From Erysipelotrichaceae bacterium NK3D112 (GTDB taxonomy: Bacteria; Bacillota_I; Bacilli_A; Erysipelotrichales; Erysipelotrichaceae), in the NCBI GenBank assembly GCA_000701725.1, contig JNJQ01000002.1, forward strand, positions 124,001 through 188,000: DNA of 64,000 nt. Reading direction: 5' to 3'. The notes beneath the pieces were generated by a model. It ran no database searches and had not been told where the DNA came from. It worked only from the letters and a program-made list of their open reading frames with translations. The translations under genes and the position numbers were made by a program. Shown piece by piece: positions 39,804 to 43,066 of the stretch (positions within the stretch are counted from its first letter, which is position 1; every line of letters starts with the position of its first letter).

Positions 39804-40265
39804 TCAGTCAAGCTTCCAGCCTTTTGCAATGAATGCGGCTGCGATATCCGCGGCTGCCTCTTCCATCTCTTTCTGCTCATCCGCTGTGAAACGGTTTTTA
39901 AACGGGGAGTCAAGGTCAATCTCCGCAATGCATTCACCGTTGACAATCACCGGCACGCACAGTTCCGATCTGCTCGCGCTGTCGCAGGCGATATGGCCCG
40001 GAAACGCTTCAACGTCATCAATGCGCTGGCTTGCCTTGTCTCTGTAGCATTTTCCGCAGACGCCTTTGTCAAACGGAATGTGCGTGCAGGCTGTCTTTCC
40101 CTGGAAAGGTCCCAGGACAAGTTCGCCGTTTTTGACAAGATAGAATCCCGCCCAGTTGAGACGGTCGTAGTTTTCATTGATGCAGGCACTGATATTTGCA
40201 AGTGCCGCAATCATATCCTCTTCTTCAAGAAAGGATCTGATCTGTGCGTTTATGTATTTATTCAT
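39804..40265 (-). CDS. Free methionine-(R)-sulfoxide reductase (GAF domain)
   Basis: This GAF-fold enzyme reduces free methionine-R-sulfoxide with thioredoxin. The 153-residue protein carries LVLGPFQGKTACTHIPFDKG, GVCGKC and the strongly conserved FPGHIACDSASRSELCVPV, which supply the three catalytic-site cysteines of the family. The start at 40265 (MNKYINAQ) gives the family length. There is no obvious ribosome binding site, and an extended -10 box ends six bases upstream, so the message may be leaderless. It is divergent from the methionine transporter operon, which suits a shared role in methionine supply. Confidence 0.9.
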   Translation of the reverse strand: MNKYINAQIRSFLEEEDMIAALANISACINENYDRLNWAGFYLVKNGELVLGPFQGKTACTHIPFDKGVCGKCYRDKASQRIDDVEAFPGHIACDSASRSELCVPVIVNGECIAEIDLDSPFKNRFTADEQKEMEEAAADIAAAFIAKGWKLD

Positions 40266-40271
40266 GGCTTC

Positions 40272-40280
40272 AGTATAACA
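40272..40280 (-). promoter_or_regulatory. Extended -10 promoter abutting the reductase start codon
   Basis: On the minus strand TGTTATACT is an extended -10 box. Six bases separate it from the ATG at 40265, so transcription would start at or next to the A of the start codon. Confidence 0.5.
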
Positions 40281-40381
40281 TAACGGCTTTGGTACACCCC
40301 TGCAAGATGCATATAGGTAAAAACTATAACCGAGAATATCAATCCTGTATGTATGCATGCACACAAAATGGCTGAGAATGA

Positions 40382-40454: not shown

Positions 40455-40475
40455 TGCATGAATACGGAGGGAATT

Positions 40476-41372
40476 ATGAAAAATATTACTAAAGTACTCG
40501 CATGCGGAATCCTTGCACTGGGCCTGGCAGCCTGCGGTGCAAAACAGGAGTCAGAGTCTGAAACTCCTGCTGAGACAGCCGGATGCAATCCGAACGGATA
40601 CCAGATCATACCGCTTGAAGCGGCTCAGCTGCCGCTGTCACTGCCGGATCTGGAAGCGGCCGTGATCAACGGCAACTATGCGCTCGAATCCGGACTCAAC
40701 GAAAAATATCCGGCGATCGCGATTGAAGAGTTTGATGCGGAAACAAGTGTGCGCAGAACCAATTATATTGCTGTAAAAGAGGGTACTGAGAATTCAGACA
40801 AGATCAGAGCTCTGATTGCGGCAGTGACTTCTGACGAAGTGAAGAACTACATTGACAGCACATACAAAGGAGCAGTCATTCCTTCCTTCATCGATGAAGA
40901 GGGCAATGCCCTGGCAGCTGCTGAAATCAAAGATGCAAGCGGTGAAGACACAATGATCACGGTCGGCGCAACCGCTGTGCCGCATGCGCAGATTCTCAAC
41001 GAAGTGGTAAAAGGACTTCTTGAGAAACACGGCTGGCAGCTCGATGTGGTCGAATATACCGATTATGTTCAGCCGAACACTGCTCTTGAAGCAGGGGATC
41101 TTGACGCCAACTATTTCCAGACACTCGGCTATCTGCACAATGAAAACGAGCAGAGGGGTCTGCATCTGAAGGCTGCCGTCGGCGTTCATATCGAACCGAT
41201 GGGAATCTATTCCGAAAAGGTCACTTCACTGTCAGATCTGAAACCCGGCGCAAGCATCGGTGTGCCCAACGATACCGACAACTACGGACGCGCGGTTGAA
41301 CTGCTCAACACGCTCGGTCTGCTTGAGAACGCTCCGCTTGATCCTGAAGCGAACCGTGAGATCAACGGTTAA
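40476..41372 (+). CDS. metQ: MetQ/NlpA methionine-binding lipoprotein, circularly permuted
   Basis: This is the substrate-binding lipoprotein of a methionine ABC importer. The 298-residue precursor has a signal peptide with lipobox LAAC (Cys20). Normal MetQ runs from VGATxxPHAEIL through DYVQPN, DANYFQ and HIEPMGLYS to EAAQLP, AVINGNYA and GAVIPAF. Here the order is reversed. Residues 38-138 carry the usual C-terminal half (PLEAAQLPLSL, AVINGNYALESG, YKGAVIPSF). After a 21-residue linker, residues 160-298 carry the usual N-terminal half (VGATAVPHAQIL, DYVQPNTAL, DANYFQTLGYL, HIEPMGIYSEK, PNDTDNYGRA). All family motifs occur once, so this is a circular permutation, not a duplication. GGAGGG precedes the start. 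metN and metI follow. Confidence 0.9.
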   Translation: MKNITKVLACGILALGLAACGAKQESESETPAETAGCNPNGYQIIPLEAAQLPLSLPDLEAAVINGNYALESGLNEKYPAIAIEEFDAETSVRRTNYIAVKEGTENSDKIRALIAAVTSDEVKNYIDSTYKGAVIPSFIDEEGNALAAAEIKDASGEDTMITVGATAVPHAQILNEVVKGLLEKHGWQLDVVEYTDYVQPNTALEAGDLDANYFQTLGYLHNENEQRGLHLKAAVGVHIEPMGIYSEKVTSLSDLKPGASIGVPNDTDNYGRAVELLNTLGLLENAPLDPEANREING

Positions 41373-41462: not shown

Positions 41463-42428
41463 ATGATAGTTTTAAATGATGTAAAGAAGAATTTCGGTGA
41501 GCTCGAAGTTCTCAAAGGCATATCGATCGAAATCCGTGATCATGAGATCTACGGAATCATCGGTCAAAGCGGCGCCGGCAAATCAACGCTGCTCAGATGC
41601 ATCAACGGACTGGAATCCTATCAGTCCGGCTCCATTACCGTGGACGGGGAGAAGATTGATATCTCCAACCCGAAAAAACTGCGTCTTCAGCAGAAGAACA
41701 TGGGCATGATCTTCCAGAATTTCAATCTGCTCACACGTCTGGATGTCTATGACAATGTGGCGCTGCCGCTGAAATTCTGGGGCATGAAGACAAAGACAGC
41801 GCAAGCCCGTGAGAAAATCAACGGATTACTGAAACTGGTCGGGCTTGAGGATAAAGTCCATGCAAGACCGGCAGAGCTTTCCGGCGGCCAGAAACAGAGA
41901 GTGGCGATCGCCCGGGCTCTGGTGCTTGATCCCAAGATTCTTTTATGCGATGAGGCAACCAGTGCGCTTGATCCGGGCATCACCCGTGAAATCCTGGCAT
42001 TGCTGCAGAAGATCAACCGTGAAATGGGCATCACGATCATCGTCGTCACCCATCAGATGGAAGTGGTCAAGCAGATCTGTGAGAGGGTTGCTTTCATCAA
42101 GGACGGCACCGTGATCGCCGAAGGAAAACCTGAAGACCTGTTTGTCAGACCTTCGAAAGAGGTCAAGGCCTTCCTGCAGGAGGAAAGCGATCATCTGCCT
42201 TCAGAGGGCGTGAATATCCAGCTCTTCTTCACCGAGGAAAGTTCGGATGAGCCGGTGATCACCATGATGGCAAGAGAGCTCGGCATTGATTTTTCGATCT
42301 GCTGGGGCAAGCTCGAAGACTTCCGCTCCAATGTGTTCGGCAGTCTTGTCATCAATATCAGAAATGAGGATCAGGAAAGGGTGCTTTCCTATCTGAAAGA
42401 CAAAAAAGTCATCGCGGAGGTGCTCTGA
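41463..42428 (+). CDS. metN: Methionine ABC transporter ATP-binding protein MetN
   Basis: The 321-residue ATPase energises methionine uptake. It has Walker A (GQSGAGKSTLLRC), Q-loop (MIFQNFNLL), signature LSGGQKQRVAIARAL, Walker B (ILLCDEATSALDP), the switch His (VVTHQME) and a C-terminal NIL domain (about 240-321) that senses methionine for trans-inhibition. It lies 90 bases after metQ and two bases before metI, in the normal metQNI set. Confidence 0.95.
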   Translation: MIVLNDVKKNFGELEVLKGISIEIRDHEIYGIIGQSGAGKSTLLRCINGLESYQSGSITVDGEKIDISNPKKLRLQQKNMGMIFQNFNLLTRLDVYDNVALPLKFWGMKTKTAQAREKINGLLKLVGLEDKVHARPAELSGGQKQRVAIARALVLDPKILLCDEATSALDPGITREILALLQKINREMGITIIVVTHQMEVVKQICERVAFIKDGTVIAEGKPEDLFVRPSKEVKAFLQEESDHLPSEGVNIQLFFTEESSDEPVITMMARELGIDFSICWGKLEDFRSNVFGSLVINIRNEDQERVLSYLKDKKVIAEVL

Positions 42429-42430
42429 TC

Positions 42431-43066
42431 ATGTATGAAACAATTCTGACCGCATTTATGCAGACGCTGATCATGGTGTTCACTTCAACCCTGATCGCGG
42501 TGATTCTCGGCTTTATTCCGGCAATCATCCTGACTCTGACTGCACCGGATGGCTTAAGACCTAACAAAATTGTCTATGAGACACTGAGTTTTATCGTCAA
42601 TGTGTTCCGCTCGTTTCCGTTTATCATCCTGCTGATCATTCTGATTCCCTTTACCAGACTGATCGTGGGCAAGGCGATCGGCACCGCCGCGGCGATTGTG
42701 CCTCTGACTGTGTCAGCAATTCCCTATATCGCAAGGGTGTTTGAGACAAGTCTCAGGGAAACAGATCCCGGCGTGATTGAAGCAGCCAGAAGCTTTGGCG
42801 CTAACGACTGGCAGATCCTCTTCTATGTTTATGTGAAGGAGTCCATTCCGAGAATGGTCAACGGAATCATCCTGCTGATCATCTCACTGGTCGGTTTCTC
42901 AGCCATGGCGGGAACCCTTGGCGGCGGGGGAATCGGCGATGTGGCGGTGCGCTACGGCTATCAGGGATACAAGCTTTCCTATCTGATTGTCTGCTCGGTT
43001 ATCCTGATCATCTTCGTTCAGCTGGTGCAGTCCGTCGGCAACTGGCTGTTCCGCAAACTCTCATGA
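42431..43066 (+). CDS. metI: Methionine ABC transporter permease MetI
   Basis: The 211-residue permease has five predicted transmembrane segments and the EAA-type coupling loop (ETDPGVIEAARSFGANDWQI) that contacts MetN. FVNVFRSFPFIILL-like sequence near residue 55 is typical of MetI. It ends the transporter operon and is followed by a terminator. Normal sequence and length here suggest that the permuted MetQ partner works with a standard translocator. Confidence 0.95.
   Translation: MYETILTAFMQTLIMVFTSTLIAVILGFIPAIILTLTAPDGLRPNKIVYETLSFIVNVFRSFPFIILLIILIPFTRLIVGKAIGTAAAIVPLTVSAIPYIARVFETSLRETDPGVIEAARSFGANDWQILFYVYVKESIPRMVNGIILLIISLVGFSAMAGTLGGGGIGDVAVRYGYQGYKLSYLIVCSVILIIFVQLVQSVGNWLFRKLS

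Follow-up and report, generated by a model that had tools for sequence, protein, structure and literature searches.

The metQ gene of the gut bacterium Erysipelotrichaceae bacterium NK3D112 encodes a MetQ/NlpA-type lipoprotein in which the usual C-terminal half precedes the usual N-terminal half. This protein is very likely a natural circular permutant, with a fold predicted by modeling, that acts as substrate-binding subunit for the MetNI importer encoded next to it; its methionine binding and delivery to MetNI are inferred. Within the same family, MetQ has been circularly permuted at least three times, at two different loops. The gene lies in a stretch of 64,000 nucleotides that was analyzed as a whole and is referred to below as the window.

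Organization of the permuted metQ gene

The gene is a single open reading frame of 298 codons without interruption (Table 1). The Pfam family Lipoprotein_9 (NlpA, PF03180) matches its product in two separate stretches (E = 3.7e-66, 223 bits against a gathering cut-off of 27), with residues 161–284 corresponding to profile positions 1–123, whereas it does not reach the cut-offs of the NCBIfam models TIGR00363 and NF008285. In a phmmer comparison with PDB chain 4ib2, residues 152–283 aligned with chain positions 4–134 and residues 38–136 with positions 152–250. Since the C-terminal half comes first in this alignment, the halves are in swapped order and each is present once. A standard family member has its N-terminal half before its C-terminal half, collinear with the PF03180 profile, which the window protein does not. 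It does meet the criteria for a natural circular permutant, namely halves derived from one parent, swapped, present once each, and with ends that are contiguous in the parent. The window MetQ is a permuted derivative of the PF03180 family and not a standard member of it.

Proteins sharing this arrangement are referred to here as class I. All class I members possess the lipobox motif, and their linker looks like a fusion of the native C-terminal tail (FIDAEGNxV) with the native spacer of the mature N-terminus (DDKVIKVGA).

Table 1 Features of the permuted metQ locus in window coordinates.
Feature	Position	Strand	Basis or remark
GAF-domain protein	39804..40364	-	Pfam GAF/GAF_2; divergent from metQ
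RBS GGAGGG	40466..40471	+	Read from sequence; just 5' of the metQ ORF
Circularly permuted metQ (class I), 298 aa	40476..41372	+	ORF and translation; Pfam Lipoprotein_9 in two swapped stretches
Lipoprotein signal peptide, lipobox ending at Cys20	40476..40535	+	Translation
Normal C-terminal half of MetQ, residues 38–138, with pocket Asn65 and Asn96	40587..40889	+	Homology/alignment
Linker, residues 139–159 (21 residues)	40890..40952	+	Compared with normal relatives
Normal N-terminal half of MetQ, residues 160–284, with pocket Tyr197, Phe214, Tyr219 and Arg272	40953..41327	+	Homology/alignment
New C-terminal tail, from one side of the opened loop	41328..41369	+	Matches the loop in normal-order locus L021
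metN, ATPase with C-terminal NIL domain	41463..42428	+	Downstream of metQ
metI, permease	42431..43066	+	Downstream of metN

Predicted fold and methionine pocket

The AlphaFold2 prediction for the monomer, based on 52 aligned rows, reached a pLDDT of 93.7 and a pTM of 0.86, and the five models agreed within 0.7 pLDDT. The alignment combined 22 full-length permuted rows with normal MetQs entered as half-length rows; it superseded an earlier run with 22 rows, which had given a pLDDT of 78.8. Order-dependent aligners matched the model to MetQ chains only over the N-terminal half (about residues 118–263; ~138 residues at 3–4 Å), and matched it to OpuAC over residues 1–250 (Z = 10.6, rmsd 5.2 Å, 196 residues). 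For the predicted model, this end-to-end match with OpuAC is the chain order of the kind expected after such a permutation. The permuted chain is thus predicted to keep a single MetQ-like fold with both lobes closed, although no simultaneous superposition of both halves on MetQ was obtained.

In the MetQ of Neisseria meningitidis (NmMetQ), methionine is contacted by R156, N213 and N238 on one domain and by Y81, F98, H100 and Y103 on the other (PMC6739813). The equivalents of R156/N213/N238/Y81/F98/H100/Y103 in the window protein are R272/N65/N96/Y197/F214/T216/Y219. Six of these seven positions (Y, F, Y, R, N and N) are invariant across all 22 class I rows, while H100 is replaced by threonine in class I and also in 40 of 69 normal-order relatives. 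The break is located in a surface loop of domain 2, between the helix carrying the pocket arginine and the strand before EAAQLP. Because it falls between the equivalents of R156 and N213, which belong to the same domain (PMC6739813), the protein was opened in a domain-2 loop and not at the inter-domain crossover.

An earlier note, made from sequence alone, had proposed a natural circular permutation of MetQ/NlpA, and this held with respect to the reading frame, the Pfam match, the 4ib2 alignment and the recurrence described below. The proposed lipoprotein signal with Cys20, C-terminal half at residues 38–138, 21-residue linker, and normal metN and metI downstream were likewise confirmed, as was the statement that each part occurs once with nothing duplicated or lost (4ib2 alignment and the L021 loop, see below). 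The N-terminal half, given as residues 160–298, was refined to residues 160–284 plus a short tail. The claim that the joined ends rebuild the crossover region failed; they rebuild the domain-2 surface loop instead. A fold that does not close had been named as a possible refutation, which did not materialize, as the predicted model is confident.

Distribution of class I and its genomic neighborhood

Class I was found in 23 of 273 genomes of the family Erysipelotrichaceae, distributed over three genera, and the other members are 61–94% identical to the window protein. A scan of public genomes retrieved 22 permuted loci (L031–L052) from different groups or projects and assemblers, and profiles of the two halves confirmed the swapped order within one ORF for each of them. 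Every class I genome encountered in public records was assembled from metagenomes. No second MetQ homologue was detected in the window genome, a draft of 95 contigs, and in each of the 17 class I genomes that belong to its genus the permuted gene was the sole MetQ match (threshold E ≤ 1e-3). Pairwise dN/dS within class I ranged from 0.05 to 0.15, which indicates purifying selection. In the wider class and phylum, searched with a stringent threshold of 1e-38, no additional permuted genome turned up, a result that does not demonstrate absence, and scans of viral contigs found neither class I nor class IIb (see below).

The genes metN and metI lie 3' of metQ in nearly all class I loci with enough room, and also 3' of normal-order metQ. 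A GAF-domain gene is located divergently upstream of permuted loci and of several normal metQ loci; we take the one in the window to be possibly a free methionine-(R)-sulfoxide reductase. As permuted and normal loci share these genes on both sides, the permutation most likely occurred in place. In two loci (L032:4914–6854 and L035:3835–5727) a large ORF resembling, by eye, an OafA-type acyltransferase is situated between the permuted metQ and metN. The window also contains a T-box leader at positions 287–493 (Rfam RF00230, 98 bits).

Origin of the class I permutation

Class I has a single origin. In a tree of 113 un-permuted cores it formed one clade (support 100/98) nested among normal-order MetQs of the same family, and in separate trees of each half it was again one clade, with overlapping normal-order sister groups. 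Normal-order relatives share 50–65% identity per half with class I. In the nearest normal-order MetQ (L021), NNAVVDPDTLEKGINDNAEVNPHGF connects the segments that form the C-terminus (APxDPxxIxxING) and the N-terminus (VNPHGYEI) in class I, and the loop LNAAGYLNNAVVDPDTLEKGINDNAEVNPHGFVITPL links the longer C-terminal motif (GLLNxAPxDPxxIxxING) with the start of the first half (VNPHGYEIVP). As the two ends of the break are united within a single loop in L021, nothing was lost in the permutation.

The inferred route is a tandem duplication followed by fusion and removal of the outer parts; it fits the linker and loop evidence and is plausible, but has not been shown. No permutation intermediate was found, and a search for repeats of ≥16 nt around the window metQ revealed no trace of residual duplication. 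A congener (L064:3686–5996) carries two near-identical normal metQ genes in tandem, ~395 bp apart and upstream of metN, which possibly model an intermediate.

Further permutations in the family

Two other groups, classes IIa and IIb, which are unrelated to each other, have their break at a different site, after the SLDDLK helix and before the VPND strand. Class IIa was detected in seven genomes of one genus (g17), in one genome each of two others (g19 and g56), and on two IMG/VR contigs. For class IIb, the window's genus contributes 12 genomes and two other genera one each; four of these 12 genomes contain a normal MetQ as well. Class I and class IIa share the operon order metQ-metN-metI, whereas class IIb has metN-metI-metQ with more distant metN and metI. 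The class IIa loci (L087, L088, L107–L113, L159, L160) show full MetQ pocket motifs and the same break loop as class IIb. In the class IIb loci (L058–L063, L102, L103, L116–L119, L128, L129) the break precedes a VPND-type strand and the pocket region is partly diverged, with further diverged motifs such as TINGTYAI and GMAPLTLYS. Apparent extra N-half sequence ahead of the C-half in L102 and L103 was rejected as a spurious alignment of the signal peptide and spacer.

A common origin of classes IIa and IIb was strongly rejected, as forcing them into a single clade lowers the log-likelihood by 237 units (p-AU = 1.5e-65). The tree requires four changes between normal and permuted order, but class IIb as a single clade was not rejected (p = 0.24), and the supported minimum is therefore three independent permutations. 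A normal-order gene inside the class IIb clade (L127:1838–2794), sister to the permuted L128, could reflect either a further event or a reversal. Given that class IIb as one clade was not rejected, a reversion of L127 to normal order is not needed.

Relation to known substrate-binding proteins

Class I resembles normal MetQ/NlpA (PF03180; N. meningitidis MetQ, PDB 3IR1 and 6CVA) in the sequence of both halves, the lipobox, the pocket residues and the metN/metI partners, and differs from it in the swapped halves, the anchor inferred to sit on domain 2, and threonine in place of His100. Permuted substrate-binding proteins are already known. TpMglB-2 (Tp0684), a glucose-binding lipoprotein designated ‘Type Ic’, likewise derives by natural circular permutation from a lipid-anchored substrate-binding protein of an ABC transporter (PMC4990184), but has a Type I sugar-binding fold and belongs to a different family. 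In TpMglB-2 the permuted portion is hard to align with normal relatives, at 13% identity over this portion, whereas the halves of class I, at the identities given above, allow the break to be placed. The window protein shows no sequence relation to the MglB sugar-binding family, as its Pfam hits were confined to Lipoprotein_9 and a sub-threshold OpuAC match, without any sugar-binding family. The glycine-betaine binders OpuAC and ProX, type II-like substrate-binding proteins, are natural circular permutants too (PMC2395249), and the class I chain, in its own order, can be aligned with OpuAC from one end to the other. That permutation was detected by structure comparison at <24% identity, concerns a glycine betaine ligand, and lies outside the MetQ family. 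Our search of the open-licence literature yielded no report of a permuted MetQ or NlpA, in line with the earlier note, which knew of none.

Proposed function and alternative explanations

In the mechanism we propose, the chain would be exported, lipidated at Cys20, and enter the fold in domain 2. It would then run through the usual C-terminal half, the linker formed from the former C-terminal tail and N-terminal spacer, and domain 1, and end on the far side of the opened domain-2 loop, with both lobes and the methionine pocket predicted to re-form. Because of the position of the break, the new termini would lie on domain 2 and the lipid anchor would hang from this domain, as opposed to domain 1 in normal MetQ; this is inferred from the published domain assignment. 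Methionine binding with the usual Venus-flytrap motion and delivery to MetNI are expected because the lobes and pocket are predicted to re-form, but no experimental data on expression, folding or binding exist.

The draft state of the window genome, with its 95 contigs, could raise the suspicion of an assembly chimera, in which pieces of a normal metQ were put together in the wrong order. Such a chimera is all but excluded: the same in-frame order with conserved linker and tails recurs in 22 further genomes of the family as well as in public assemblies that came from different groups and were built with different assemblers, no leftover normal metQ was found in the window genome or in other class I genomes of the genus, and dN/dS is far below 1. 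On the basis of the recurrence, an assembly artefact as the source of the swapped order was ruled out. The permuted chain might instead form a domain-swapped dimer and not a closed monomer. The linker of ~21 residues could allow swapping, and the structure prediction covers the monomer only. Such a dimer is not excluded; it is very unlikely, considering the confident monomer prediction and the monomeric behavior of the permuted TpMglB-2 (PMC4990184). It is also very unlikely that the protein has left methionine uptake for another ligand or role. The loss of the pocket histidine and the further divergence of class IIb could be cited in favor, but the change to threonine is also common among normal-order relatives, the other six pocket residues are invariant, and metNI is adjacent while no other MetQ was found in the genome.

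A further explanation, compatible with the permutant-importer reading preferred here, is that the permutations were adaptive and moved the anchor from domain 1 to domain 2, which would suit the docking of tethered MetQ on MetNI. At least three separate events placed all new termini in the domain-2 region, and the full MetQ–MetNI interaction requires lipidation (PMC8416018); a tether advantage has also been suggested for TpMglB-2 (PMC4990184). On the other hand, many relatives retain the normal order, and the recurrence could reflect frequent tandem duplication combined with break-tolerant loops. The adaptive explanation is thus possible and remains unproven. The same caution applies to a bolder joint reading, in which an advantage of moving the anchor from lobe 1 to lobe 2 might account for at least three independent permutations at two loops, each of which yielded a functional gene beside which no other metQ was found in most species.

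Several further points of the earlier note can be judged against these results. Its proposed tandem duplication with loss of the outer halves remains plausible in view of the tandem metQ genes in L064, but is not shown. Of the findings it had named as refutations, an intact metQ elsewhere was not found in the genome, and an assembly join is contradicted by the arrangement in 22 other species genomes and independent assemblies. The wide spread of the permuted form, the two additional permuted lineages and the location of the break in a domain-2 loop had not been seen.

Implications

Dozens of related species carry swapped versions of MetQ, and profile scores that are blind to order file the permuted genes unnoticed as ordinary MetQ. 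Many natural circular permutations are ancient events that are inferred from the fold. The change in MetQ is recent enough for the break to be placed, and it recurs within one family. Close relatives of normal order, the same genomic neighborhood, a version with the loop unbroken and the repetition of the change in three lineages are all at hand. With the close relatives, the unbroken loop and the three lineages, the steps of the permutation, its folding cost and the idea that the lipid anchor was re-sited become directly testable.
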